A stretch of DNA of 64,000 bases. Source: Blautia hansenii (GTDB lineage: Bacteria > Bacillota > Clostridia > Lachnospirales > Lachnospiraceae). Location: positions 1-64,000 of the forward strand of contig NZ_JAAITA010000013.1 of the NCBI RefSeq assembly GCF_013304445.1. The letters are read 5' to 3'. Shown in pieces: positions 6,267 to 52,394 of the stretch. The notes under the pieces were generated by a model that saw only the letters and a program-made list of their open reading frames with translations, was not told the DNA's origin and searched no databases. Each line of letters begins with the position of its first letter. Position 1 is the stretch's first letter. A program made the translations under genes and the position numbers.

Positions 6267-7488
6267 TTAAGTCTGTATTCCTTTCTGTCGGCTGCTCTGG
6301 AATCTGTACAGGGATTTGCTGTCCTGCTTCTTCAATTACCGACACGGTCCCTTTGGCAGTGCAGATTCCATTCTGTATTCCTATTTTAACATGATTTGCA
6401 GATATTTGAACCCCCTTTTCCGTTAAACTTTGTAAAACCGTGTTTAAATGCAGGGTGGCCCGTTCTTTGGCTTCCTGTTCCGAATAAGTGAAAATACGGG
6501 TTTCATAGGCACAGTCTGTGCTGGTTCCATAGTAAATGGGAAGTCTGAAATTTTCGGTCAGGCGAACCTGCTTTAAATCCGTCACGGTGTCAAATTCCTG
6601 CCAGGAAACGTTTTTCTTTGTATTCAGACAGTAATTTCCCAGCTGCAGCAGATAGCCTTTATTTTCTTTGCCGGTATAGACCGGTTTTTCGTATTTCATG
6701 GAAAAGGCGTGATAATATTGCAGCGGATATTCCACCAGAACGTCAGCGTCTGCCAGGGTATATTCCTGGCGGATAATTTCTTTGCTGTCATTTTGAATAT
6801 CCAGAGTTCCCCGGACCAGAACTTCCCCTTTTACACAGGTCTCTCCTGTTTTTTTTACGGGTGTGCCGGTGCGGGTTATCATAGAAACAATCTGCCCCGT
6901 TTTGGTGGAAATCAGGTCGCATGCAGATGGTTTCTGCTGTTTTTTTTCATAGATGTTGTCATTTTCCTGAATTTCCAGAATCAGTCTGCTGCCGGAAATC
7001 CGGGCAGATACCCAGGTGATATCGGGAAATTCTGCCCGCAGCTTTTGGGCAATCCAGGCGCAGTCCAGGTCTTTTTTCAGAACGCCGTGTTCTATCTGAA
7101 GCTCTTCTAAATAACGCAGAATGGTCTGGGTGCTGTTATGTACATTTCCTTCCACATGAATGTTCCAGATATGGCGGGAAAGGGCAGCTACCAGGAAAAG
7201 ACTGAGACAAATGCCGATAAAAAACGCCTTTCTTTTTTTGCTGCGGTAAAAAAAGAAGGGCAGTCCGTATTTTCCTGTAATTTTCACCCGTGTATGGGTC
7301 TTCCTGCAAATATTTTTCAGTTTGTAAAAATCTTTTACCGTCAGATTCATTTCATAGCTGTTATGGTTCTGCAGCAGATTCCAGACACGGATTTTGTGAT
7401 AAGCGCACAAATTCAAAAACCGCTCCGGGCTGTCCGCCTGTACCTGAATGCGCACATACCCTTTGCGGTAGTATTTCCAGTCCTGCAA
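6259..7488 (-). CDS. yqfD: sporulation protein YqfD
   Basis: The 409-residue protein matches YqfD: an N-terminal cytosolic region (WKYYRKGYVRIQVQADSPER), one transmembrane segment around residues 88-106 (KAFFIGICLSLFLVAAL) and a long extracytoplasmic domain resembling stage IV sporulation/FtsQ-type folds (HIWNIHVEGN). It is made during sporulation in Bacillus and clostridia. It lies between yqfC and phoH as in B. subtilis, which supports both identity and a spore-forming host. Confidence 0.93.
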   Translation of the reverse strand: MQDWKYYRKGYVRIQVQADSPERFLNLCAYHKIRVWNLLQNHNSYEMNLTVKDFYKLKNICRKTHTRVKITGKYGLPFFFYRSKKRKAFFIGICLSLFLVAALSRHIWNIHVEGNVHNSTQTILRYLEELQIEHGVLKKDLDCAWIAQKLRAEFPDITWVSARISGSRLILEIQENDNIYEKKQQKPSACDLISTKTGQIVSMITRTGTPVKKTGETCVKGEVLVRGTLDIQNDSKEIIRQEYTLADADVLVEYPLQYYHAFSMKYEKPVYTGKENKGYLLQLGNYCLNTKKNVSWQEFDTVTDLKQVRLTENFRLPIYYGTSTDCAYETRIFTYSEQEAKERATLHLNTVLQSLTEKGVQISANHVKIGIQNGICTAKGTVSVIEEAGQQIPVQIPEQPTERNTDLNE

Positions 7489-14482: not shown

Positions 14483-15232
14483 ATGAAAAATGAATTATTT
14501 TCCGTGGGACCGCTTACCATACATGGATATGGGCTGATGATTGCGCTGGGGATTCTGGTATGTATCTTCATGGGAACGTACCGTGCAAAAAAGCACCATT
14601 TGAAAGAGGATGCGGTTCTGGATATTGCTATTTTCAGTATTCTTGCAGGATTTATAGGTGCAAAGCTGTTATTTGTGCTGGTGGAATTTGACCGCTTTTT
14701 GGAAGACCCTATGCAGGTGCTGGGAACAGAAGGCTTTGTTGTGTACGGAGGAATCATTGCAGGTGTACTAGCCGCGATTTTGTATTGTCACAGAAAAAAA
14801 CTTTCTTTCTTGGAATATTTTGATTTGCTGGCCCCCTCCATTGCTGTGGCCCAGGGATTTGGAAGAATCGGCTGTTTCCTGGCAGGATGCTGCTATGGCA
14901 GAGAAACCGATGCTTTCTGGGGTGTGACCTTTCCTGAGGGCAGCTTTGCCCCGGCAGGTGTTCCTCTGATTCCCACACAGTTGTTGTCTTCTGCGGGAGA
15001 TTTTCTGATTATGGCGGTGCTTCTGATTTACAGTAGGCACAGCAAAAAGACCGGAAACACAGGAGCCTTGTACCTGTTGCTTTACGGAATAGGCCGTTTC
15101 CTCATAGAATTTCTCCGTTCTGATGACAGAGGAACCGTAGGAATGCTGTCTACCTCTCAGTTTATTTCTATTGGAATTGTACTGATTGCAGTGGGAATGT
15201 TCAATAAGAAGCAGCGGAAAAAGTACACTTAA
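14483..15232 (+). CDS. prolipoprotein diacylglyceryl transferase family protein (divergent)
   Basis: A 249-residue polytopic membrane protein of the Lgt family with about seven transmembrane segments. Lgt moves diacylglycerol from phosphatidylglycerol to the lipobox Cys. Two hallmark sites differ from canonical Lgt: the HGG motif reads VYGGIIAG (His to Tyr), and GRxGNFxNxExxG reads GRIGCFLAGCCYGRET. This Cys-rich variant recurs in clostridia as a second Lgt-like type. It may have another substrate, so I give no gene symbol. It diverges from sbcD and is followed by a tiny peptide gene. Confidence 0.8.
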   Translation: MKNELFSVGPLTIHGYGLMIALGILVCIFMGTYRAKKHHLKEDAVLDIAIFSILAGFIGAKLLFVLVEFDRFLEDPMQVLGTEGFVVYGGIIAGVLAAILYCHRKKLSFLEYFDLLAPSIAVAQGFGRIGCFLAGCCYGRETDAFWGVTFPEGSFAPAGVPLIPTQLLSSAGDFLIMAVLLIYSRHSKKTGNTGALYLLLYGIGRFLIEFLRSDDRGTVGMLSTSQFISIGIVLIAVGMFNKKQRKKYT

Positions 15233-15300
15233 CAAATTTTTGTATATAATCTAGCCGAAACAAAACACAGCACAGCTATGACTTTAGGAGGGCTACGATT

Positions 15301-15405
15301 ATGAATAAAGTTTATGAAAAACCTGCAGTTATTGTTGATGAAGTTGCAGCAGAGGGTTCTGGTGTACAGACTTCTGTAACAGGATATACCTATTCTGCAG
15401 AATAA
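15301..15405 (+). CDS. 34-residue peptide gene, precursor-like, unknown function
   Basis: An open frame too short for usual gene calling. ATG at 15301 is preceded by AGGAGGG (15286-15292, spacing 8), one of the best ribosome binding sites in the window. A bidirectional terminator begins 24 bases after the TAA. The product starts MNKVYEKPAVIVDE, continues with VAAEGSG and ends in a Thr/Ser/Tyr-rich tail (TGYTYSAE). The YEKPxVxVxE-then-AEG layout looks like a leader followed by a short core, as in small secreted or modified peptides of Lachnospiraceae. No modification enzyme is adjacent. A TATAAT at 15245-15250 could be its -10 box, but no good -35 is visible. Confidence 0.75.
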   Translation: MNKVYEKPAVIVDEVAAEGSGVQTSVTGYTYSAE

Positions 15406-15429
15406 GTAAGAATCCTAAAATAGATATTG

Positions 15430-15469
15430 AAAAAAGGAGTCTGTTACGCCATGTGACAACTTCTTTTTT
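15430..15469. terminator. bidirectional intrinsic terminator
   Basis: AAAAAAGGAGT pairs with ACTTCTTTTTT, enclosing a second stem GTTAC/GTGAC with loop GCCAT; one C is bulged. The A and T tracts make it work in both directions. It ends the 34-residue peptide transcript on the plus strand and the YkgJ-type gene on the minus strand. Confidence 0.85.
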
Positions 15470-15481
15470 CGTATTCTGATT

Positions 15482-16144
15482 TCAAAAAAAATATATTTCC
15501 GCCTTTTTCAGCCGTTCTTCAAACTGTTCATAAAAATCAGCTTCTGCTTTATACGGCGTCAGATAAAAAGTTTTCAAAATAAACATACAGACATTTTTCA
15601 CAGCACTTTCCTCCTGAAATTGTGCAGCGATTTTTTCTGCTTTTTTCAGAAAGGTGTGCCATTGAAGCACAAATCTTTCGTACTCCTGTATCCTTGATAT
15701 CCCCAGCCATTTGCTGATTTTCACCTTTGTTTTTGGGTTTTGTCTGCATTCATGTACCTGTAGGAAATAGTGAAAACAATCCTCCTCATAAATGCGTCCC
15801 AGAGGAAACATTCTGCAAAAACCAGGACGGAAAGCATGAATACTGCACCGTCCCTGGATATTTAAAAAGGGGCACTGTTCTTCTTTTTCTGCCATTTTCA
15901 GATTGGGCAGAATCAGTCCGTCTGCCATTCGAAGTTCTAAAGCATAAGACAAAAGTGTTTCAAAATTTTGTTCCAGATGACTGCAAAGCTGATAGACATC
16001 GAAAGGATCCAGAACAATAGAATCCCCCATGCCGCGGCAGCAGTCTGAGCAGCCTTTGCAGTCGTTGCAGCCCGCCTTTACCATGTCACTTTGACGGTAC
16101 AGTTTTCCGTCTGAGACGGCATTTAAATCCAGTTCTCTCCGCAT
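15482..16144 (-). CDS. YkgJ family cysteine-cluster protein
   Basis: About 220 residues. The N-terminal CNDCKGCSDCCRGMGDSIVL is the CxxCxxCC zinc/iron-chelating motif. A QCPFLNIQGRCSIHAFRPGFCRMFPLG-type middle follows, which is the family's second cysteine set. The C-terminal part is helical and unassigned. The start at 16144 has AAAGGAG upstream; the frame to 16171 lacks it. It follows the unknown gene at 16172 by 27 bases, so both are likely one operon. The precise function is unknown. Confidence 0.85.
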   Translation of the reverse strand: MRRELDLNAVSDGKLYRQSDMVKAGCNDCKGCSDCCRGMGDSIVLDPFDVYQLCSHLEQNFETLLSYALELRMADGLILPNLKMAEKEEQCPFLNIQGRCSIHAFRPGFCRMFPLGRIYEEDCFHYFLQVHECRQNPKTKVKISKWLGISRIQEYERFVLQWHTFLKKAEKIAAQFQEESAVKNVCMFILKTFYLTPYKAEADFYEQFEERLKKAEIYFF

Positions 16145-16171
16145 ATTTTTCTCCTTTGCTTTACGAACCAC

Positions 16172-50681: not shown

Positions 50682-52394
50682 TTATCGACATTTATCAACC
50701 GAATCTTCCATGTTCTCCCATACTCCTTCCTGCTCAAAATGTTCCACCGCACGGCGGGCCCTTTGGGTCAGTTTCCGGTCATATTTCATCATATCCAGAA
50801 GGCGAATGGCATTTCGGGTGGTCACGCGCCCTTCTTTCAGAAGATAGTTAAAGACCACGTCATCTTCTCCCACTTCTTCCTCAAAATGATAGTTTTTATA
50901 GCGGTTTTGCAGTATGTAAGACAATTCAATATCATGGGTAGCTGCAAAAGACAGCACATGGCTTCTGCAAATACTCCACAGAATTTCAGAGGAGGCGGCA
51001 ATGCGCTCTATGGTATTGGTTCCCCGCAGCACCTCGTCAATGATACAGAGCAGATTTCCGTCCCGGTCCGCCTCATCCAGAATCCGCTTCAAAGAACGGA
51101 TTTCCACGATGAAATAGCTCTCTCCGCTTTCCAAATCGTCCCGCAGCGCCATAGAAGTCATCACCTTAAAATATGGGGCACGGTAAGAAGAAGCTGTGCA
51201 GGTGTAAACCGTCTGAGCCAGAATGGCATTAATGGCAACATTTTTCAAAAACGTAGACTTTCCGGAAGCGTTGGAGCCTGTGACTAAAATTCCGCCCTGG
51301 GCAGAAATACTGTTGGATACCGGATGGGAAATCAAAGGATGATACAAATCTTCTGTTTCCATTCGGGCCCTGTCCTCGGAAAGAAACTGGGGCAGGCTGT
51401 AATAAGGCAGAATTTCCCGGAAAGACGCAATGGAAATCATACTTTCTAGATATCCGAACAGAGAAATCAGTCCTTCGATTTCTGTCATATGCTCCTGCAT
51501 GCTGTGCATCATATCGTGAAATTTAATCAAGTCGATATGGGTCATCATGCGGATATAGTCCATAAAAAGTCCTCCTAATCCGCCTCCTGCCGTACTGCTG
51601 CGCTCCGTTACCCAAAATGCTCCCTTTCGAAAGCCGGAAAGCTGCTTTTTATACTGTTTTCCCTGCTCCTCATACTCTTTTAGCTGGTGAATCCCTGCTT
51701 TTTCCAGCTTCTTCTGGGCCTCAAGAAGCTGAAGTACACAGCCGAAACTGGTGAGATAAGCGTCAATTTCTCCCTTTTTGCCCCAATAAGTTCCGATATT
51801 TACAAGGCAGACAAGCAGAAAAACCAGCACCCCCGGATTCGGCTTTAAGACAAAAAACAGCAGCGACAGCAAAAATGCCCCCAAGCAGAGCACCTGTCCC
51901 GTTTTTCCCTGAACCGTAACTTCTCTTGTCACATGAACAGCTTCAAAAATCCCCACATTTCCCGGTCTTCGGATACTGGCCAAAAGCATTTGCAGCTTCT
52001 GCCGTTCTTCCTGATGACTGCGGAAAAACTCTATGAGCCGCTGCCTTTCCTTCAACTCTTTTTCCTCAAAAACCGGTTTCCGCAAAAGATTATAGAGACA
52101 TTCCGCCCCTACAGGGGAACAGCTCTGATTGATGAGTATAAAGATACGGTCCATATCCAGGTCATTCCAGGTAATGTCATCAATGTAAAAGCCGTTTTTT
52201 TCACGCTGTCGGAAGAACTGGGCAATATGCTCCAGTTCCTCGTAGGTGTATTCCTTTTGAGGAATTTGTCCCCAGGAATTTTTTATCCGCGCTAAAAACC
52301 TCTTTTGGTTGGAACGATTCTGCACGAGAATCAATATCGATGCAGCCAGAAAAAACAGCAGCAGAAAAACAAGGTTTGAAAGATTGCTATCCAT
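50682..52394 (-). CDS. membrane-associated MutS-like ATPase
   Basis: 570 residues. An N-terminal hydrophobic helix (LVFLLLFFLAASILILVQN) and a second hydrophobic pair near residues 175-210 (FLLSLLFFVLKP and VLVFLLVCLVNIGTYWG) suggest membrane anchoring. The C-terminal MutS ATPase domain has TGSNASGKSTFLKNVAINA, ESYFIVEIRSLKRIL, CIIDEVLRGTN and FAATHDIEL. Mismatch-recognition and clamp domains of true MutS are missing, so mismatch repair is unlikely; the role is unknown. It follows hemL by 18 bases. Confidence 0.87.
   Translation of the reverse strand: MDSNLSNLVFLLLFFLAASILILVQNRSNQKRFLARIKNSWGQIPQKEYTYEELEHIAQFFRQREKNGFYIDDITWNDLDMDRIFILINQSCSPVGAECLYNLLRKPVFEEKELKERQRLIEFFRSHQEERQKLQMLLASIRRPGNVGIFEAVHVTREVTVQGKTGQVLCLGAFLLSLLFFVLKPNPGVLVFLLVCLVNIGTYWGKKGEIDAYLTSFGCVLQLLEAQKKLEKAGIHQLKEYEEQGKQYKKQLSGFRKGAFWVTERSSTAGGGLGGLFMDYIRMMTHIDLIKFHDMMHSMQEHMTEIEGLISLFGYLESMISIASFREILPYYSLPQFLSEDRARMETEDLYHPLISHPVSNSISAQGGILVTGSNASGKSTFLKNVAINAILAQTVYTCTASSYRAPYFKVMTSMALRDDLESGESYFIVEIRSLKRILDEADRDGNLLCIIDEVLRGTNTIERIAASSEILWSICRSHVLSFAATHDIELSYILQNRYKNYHFEEEVGEDDVVFNYLLKEGRVTTRNAIRLLDMMKYDRKLTQRARRAVEHFEQEGVWENMEDSVDKCR

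Follow-up and report, generated by a model that had tools for sequence, protein, structure and literature searches.

Genomic context of the small ORF

The window, i.e. the whole 64,000-nucleotide stretch of Blautia hansenii DNA analysed here, carries a short ORF in the spacer between lgt and a convergently transcribed gene. The features of the locus are as follows.

14483–15232, + strand: lgt, prolipoprotein diacylglyceryl transferase, directly upstream of the spacer (listed frame, NCBIfam/Pfam scan)
15245–15250, + strand: TATAAT, a hexamer resembling a −10 element but lacking a good −35; it lies outside the putative insert (found by eye, absent from the promoter scan)
15259–15408, no strand: stretch of about 150 bp absent from the sister species (alignment; ends good to a few bases)
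15286–15292, + strand: Shine–Dalgarno sequence AGGAGGG, eight bases 5′ of the ATG
15301–15405, + strand: ORF of 34 residues, MNKVYEKPAVIVDEVAAEGSGVQTSVTGYTYSAE (listed frame and translation)
15301–15357, + strand: leader-like N-terminus, MNKVYEKPAVIVDEVAAEG (leader HMM and DNA match; a whole-genome E value of 0.27 speaks against it)
15391–15404, no strand: 14-bp perfect palindrome TATTCTGCAGAATA, overlapping the last codons of the frame
~15429–15470, + strand: hairpin between the convergent genes, common to the sister species (folding, alignment)
15482–16171, − strand: convergent gene with a CxxCxxCC putative zinc/iron-chelating domain (PF03692; Pfam)

Six adjacent frames were scanned. Besides the peptide, which returned nothing from Pfam or NCBIfam at E ≤ 1, they comprise lgt, the PF03692 gene, a UvrD-like helicase, an MFS protein and one frame without a match. 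The original prediction that no modifying enzyme lies beside the peptide is borne out, as none was recognised in the adjoining frames. It had also called the Lgt-like gene divergent; lgt lies on the same strand directly upstream, and if sequence divergence was meant, this does not hold either, since the full-length Lgt exceeds the NCBIfam cut-off (PRK00052.3-4, 353.7 bits, cut-off 334).

A strong bidirectional hairpin serving as the peptide's own terminator had been proposed 24 bases past the stop codon. The hairpin exists, at a distance of 23 bases, and is stable as + strand RNA (−22.3 kcal/mol, z −5.3); as − strand RNA, it is weak (−11.8 kcal/mol, z −0.9), and a simple terminator scan listed it on neither strand. 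Nor is it the peptide's own, as it sits between convergent genes and is also present in the sister species, which lacks the peptide stretch. The promoter scan returned no + strand site from the last 120 bases of lgt to the ORF. Ten bases of the coding region (15366–15375) are 90 % complementary to 15435–15444, in the region of the 5′ arm of the hairpin. We rejected an attenuator leader peptide, because the + strand has no further gene between the peptide and the hairpin and this pairing has nothing evident to regulate. The Rfam scan of the window detected only a cobalamin riboswitch (RF00174, 58979–59159, 104.5 bits), far from the peptide.

The reading frame and its ribosome binding site

The frame begins with ATG at 15301, runs for 34 codons and ends with TAA at 15403–15405; both the frame and the AGGAGGG eight bases before its ATG are as originally described. 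Only two ATG frames of 20–60 codons with AGGAGG 4–12 nt upstream occur in the window, and the other (at 51001, 38 codons) lies opposite a 293-codon frame. When the 249-nt spacer was shuffled with dinucleotides preserved, an ATG frame of at least 34 codons arose in 4,867 of 20,000 shuffles, whereas such a frame together with AGGAGG 4–12 nt upstream arose in 6 of a separate set of 20,000. The frame alone is thus common and the combination rare, so the evidence is carried by the ribosome site. The small ORF is real and probably translated.

Codon usage is indecisive, with scores that hardly differ between the frame and the next one (11.0 versus 8.4 bits). Third codon positions are 88 % A/T (30/34 codons) versus 54 % in four nearby genes, which may reflect either a foreign origin of the insert or high expression of the gene. 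The open frame around the peptide comprises 51 residues. The palindrome at its 3′ end has five sites within two mismatches in the window (itself included) versus 0.29 expected.

A putative insertion between lgt and the convergent gene

Both the ribosome site and the peptide frame fall within the stretch of about 150 bp that is absent from the sister species (G314; Lgt 94 % identical). There, lgt runs to a contig edge and the PF03692 side of the spacer lies on another contig (C55), the sequence of which, aligned to the window, passes through the same hairpin to about 15408. This contig stops 25 bases past the match, and the evidence for an empty site consists of these final 25 bases, which match 15233–15257 at 19/25 positions. 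Insertion in this genome, rather than loss in the sister species, is the simpler reading, in which case the hairpin would predate the peptide. We rejected a mobile element with terminal repeats, as no repeat pair was found at the two ends of the insert.

Across 12 other genomes of the genus, the lgt/PF03692 spacer (15233–15481 here) ranges from about 0.09 to 1.8 kb, with lengths reckoned by hand and the first 420 bases inspected. It measures about 0.09–0.15 kb and lacks the peptide in five of them (G302, G303, G309, G310 and G311), and it measures about 0.9–1.8 kb and holds other sequence in seven (G028, G299, G300, G304, G313, G315 and G316). The two genes are on separate contigs in G307, and five genomes returned no lgt at E 1e-40. 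The spacer behaves as though it often accepts insertions.

No second copy of the peptide was found in 20 genus genomes or in samples of 299 and 395 relatives, which overlap. The genus search (E ≤ 10) gave matches in four genomes, comprising the peptide's own and three in frames of 521–614 residues; the search of 299 family genomes (E ≤ 1) gave 34, comprising its own and 33 at E 0.05–1, mostly in long frames; and the search of 395 relatives gave eight genomes at E ≤ 0.3, its own included. Phages and plasmids yielded no match to the peptide at E ≤ 10 and only short matches to the spacer DNA (E 0.2–0.8). A pattern search of the 20 genus genomes returned only the peptide's own site; the combination of a ribosome site with YEKP occurred in neither genome nor viral contigs, and viral contigs held neither the YEKP...AEG pattern nor an exact 24-mer. 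Conservation of the frame in related genomes, which had been set as a test of the gene, therefore fails so far.

Resemblance to a family of Lachnospiraceae leaders

The N-terminus of the peptide, YEKPxVxVDExxAEG, resembles the leader MKxYEKPVVxxNxELAEGVYAASG of a set of Lachnospiraceae precursors. The route to this family was a match at locus L004 (E 0.08 in the search of 299 family genomes), chosen by eye among many chance matches, in which the peptide aligns, with the two starts nearly coinciding, to a protein of 125 residues, MKKYEKPVVVVDEGLSEGVYASSG... This protein has matches in 15 of the 299 family genomes (those in G128 and G236 lie outside the leader) and on nine named contigs, from seven Lachnospiraceae MAGs (including the L004 contig), one Lachnoclostridium and one 'Bacterium D16-36'.

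At E ≤ 0.05, leader profile A4 gave 43 matches, spread over 27 of 397 family genomes. Thirty-seven of these are strong (E ≤ 3e-5, 22 genomes, open frames of 83–186 residues) and six are weak; none of the strong matches lies in a frame as short as the peptide's (51 residues), and the peptide itself is not among the matches at this threshold. Loci L069–L077 and L133–L161 encode the YEKP...AEGVYAASG leader, sometimes on tandem precursors. Some members have a cargo domain in common (52–58 % identity) and others are dissimilar past the leader. When three precursors were searched against Pfam and NCBIfam, only one reached a cut-off, that at L077:6001–6411, through a match of its cargo to a cellulose-binding domain (CBM_2, E 5e-7). 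Three contigs from the viral collection (L162, L163 and L164) also encode an AEGVYAASG-type leader.

We built a leader HMM from 23 leaders, excluding the peptide. The peptide scored 15.3 bits versus at most 8.4 for 4,002 control ATG N-termini and at most 14.4 among 20,000 shuffles of its own sequence; with the L004 leader left out, it scored 14.8 bits versus at most 8.2 and 14.2, respectively. At the DNA level, it matched the start of the L075 leader in the same register at 39.2 bits, a score that none of 1,147 control starts from the window took beyond 28.3, and it was in register with 10 of the 31 distinct precursor sequences compared at ≥22 bits, as against at most four for controls. The peptide was the bait that uncovered the family, so the HMM and DNA tests are not fully independent.

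The proposal that YEKPxVxVxE...AEG forms a leader is supported, with reservations, by the start-to-start alignment with these precursors; in whole genomes, the peptide's E value in the leader-profile search was 0.27, a background level also reached by seven other genus genomes. Elsewhere in the window, a 146-codon frame at 6699 (− strand) starts with MKYEKPVYTG and scores 8.3 bits with the leader profile, a resemblance that is probably due to chance.

The peptide shares with the Lachnospiraceae precursors the spacing of Y, P and E-G (Y to E, 13 residues) and many intervening residues, and its start codon and ribosome site are similar to theirs. Unlike them, it lacks VYAA before the invariant SG, which aligns only via a four-residue gap; it comprises 34 residues, against 77–162 among the precursors inspected; and no exporter, peptidase or NTP transferase was recognised adjoining it. 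Its high third-position A/T is not a family trait, since the 31 precursors have a median of 62 % (range 41–82 %) versus 88 % for the peptide.

The Lachnospiraceae clusters and known systems

At L071, the gene order is a Stealth protein, a polysaccharide-synthesis protein, NTP_transf_5, two precursors, an ABC exporter, a protein with PqqD and P-loop parts and an S26-like frame. Exporter-like frames lie 3′ of the precursors in seven of nine loci, and PqqD and S26-like frames occur in five of nine, with genes assigned by likeness of frames (the PqqD and S26 sets were aligned) and Pfam/NCBIfam searches run on the L071 and L072 frames. The kinase label is based on an invariant P-loop and on HprK-related matches far under cut-off. 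The S26 matches are likewise under curated cut-offs, and Ser, His and Asp are invariant across the S26 set, as expected from the LppS catalytic triad in a report on linear polyphosphorylated peptide (LPP) systems (PMC13381572).

As described there, the LPP set comprises an SpI peptidase, a discrete RRE, an HprK-like kinase, an NTP transferase and an MsbA-like transporter. Precursors of 35–200 residues have a conserved N-terminus with YxxPxV, within the leader consensus YxxPxVLxHQxIxFETxxS, and highly variable C-termini; in Paenibacillus, the RRE binds YxxP, a Ser in the core is the target of the HprK-like kinase, and the leader is removed by a signal-peptidase-like enzyme (PMC13381572). We infer that the Lachnospiraceae clusters are LPP-like; unlike the published systems with their discrete RRE, the PqqD domain is fused to the P-loop part in L071–L073 and L076. 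In the main text of PMC13381572, no word begins with Lachnospira, Blautia or Clostridia, and no paper in the literature searched contains the strings EGVYAASG, AEGVYA, YEKPVV or LAEGVY.

Two features link the peptide to LPP precursors, for example LppA of Paenibacillus alginolyticus: it is short, and it carries the RRE-binding motif YxxPxV near its N-terminus (YEKPAV, residues 5–10). It may function as RRE-bound leaders do. It differs in departing from the published consensus after YxxPxV, with no FET junction, in falling just under the stated length range with its 34 residues (PMC13381572), and in the lack of a recognised RRE (PqqD), kinase or peptidase in the adjoining frames and of a PqqD/P-loop match in the genome. 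On these grounds, it cannot be counted among the LPP family.

We also rejected a lasso precursor. Such precursors have a fitting Thr before the core, an acid at ring position 7–9 and a tail, and are accompanied by cyclase, B1 and B2 genes. None of these genes was recognised nearby and inspection by eye revealed no convincing core with Thr, acid and tail, although the peptide does possess the YxxP motif found in lasso leaders (PMC13381572).

Partner proteins in the host genome

A profile of the PqqD/P-loop protein had no match at E ≤ 0.001 in the host genome (G000; 100 % complete, nine candidates scored), while it matches 9 of 20 genus genomes at this threshold. The profile includes the P-loop half and picks up free-standing kinase-like frames elsewhere in the genus, but none in the host at E ≤ 0.001; by this profile, an HprK-like kinase was not found there. 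The only PqqD-family match in the host barely reaches the cut-off (23.5 bits, cut-off 23.4). It falls within a radical-SAM-like protein of 454 residues, whose cysteines are of the radical-SAM and SPASM-like kind and which we tentatively take to be the SCIFF maturase. The suggestion that the peptide is modified in trans is accordingly left without support. Comparison of proteins from four of the Lachnospiraceae loci with the window (tblastn) gave weak, partial matches only (peptidase, exporter and NTP transferase). Elsewhere in the genus, loci L078, L079, L083, L087 and L096 encode proteins of 54–136 residues with a YExP-like leader (e.g. YEEPKITLNEF) near PqqD/P-loop profile matches.

Possible origin and role of the peptide

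We tentatively favour, at somewhat less than even confidence, a small lineage-specific orphan gene, recently inserted, for a leader peptide of LPP type or a relic of one, rather than a working RiPP in this strain. That it is an orphan or leftover is made probable by the failure to find tag-reading partner proteins in the genome. A piece of about 150 bp with the ribosome site and the 34-codon frame would have been inserted between lgt and the convergent gene, before the shared hairpin, and would probably be transcribed by read-through from lgt and then translated. The first 19 residues would derive from, or mimic, the YxxP leader of the Lachnospiraceae LPP-like precursors, a step resting on sequence statistics that carry the selection caveat given above. 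Given the absence of VYAA and of a detectable PqqD/P-loop partner, the product would be an unprocessed orphan or a relic of an acquired precursor.

A species-specific small protein that acts free and is unrelated to RiPP leaders, with YEKP...AEG arising by chance or convergence, is a somewhat unlikely alternative. The absence of VYAA, of a PqqD/P-loop partner and of any Pfam or NCBIfam match at E ≤ 1 is consistent with it, as is the background-level E value of 0.27 in the genus search, but it accounts poorly for a leader score of 15.3 bits where none of 4,002 control N-termini exceeds 8.4 and for DNA matches in register with 10 of 31 leader starts.

We consider it unlikely that the frame is an untranslated product of chance within a small insertion, with an accidental AGGAGGG. 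A ribosome site plus frame in 6 of 20,000 shuffles argues against this, and the leader resemblance lines up with the start codon; in its favour are the ease with which a 34-codon frame alone arises (4,867 of 20,000), the lack of a second copy in the genus, family and relatives samples and a codon-usage score close to that of the next frame (11.0 versus 8.4 bits).

Also unlikely is a functional precursor that an RRE binds and that is modified in trans, whether by missed enzymes of this genome or by those of other strains. In its favour, 9 of 20 genus genomes match the PqqD/P-loop profile, and in G315 an S26-like frame, recognised by eye, comes after kinase-like and PqqD-like matches (L166). Against it stand a complete host genome with no such match at E ≤ 0.001, a lone PqqD-family match in a radical-SAM-like protein and an invariant Ser-Gly reached only via a four-residue gap.

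We regard as very unlikely a leader-only LPP-type peptide that spreads without a cluster and acts as a stand-alone signal or as an RRE decoy for LPP-like clusters (those of other genus members, or acquired later), a role it could fill because the RRE-binding half is kept and the cleavage junction is absent.

The peptide may well turn out to be a relic. If its relation to the leaders is true, it would connect an orphan with a RiPP family that was described in 2026, and would suggest that fragments of about 150 bp can carry such a leader in the absence of the associated machinery. Its relatives suggest that Lachnospiraceae harbour LPP-like clusters with large and varied cargo.
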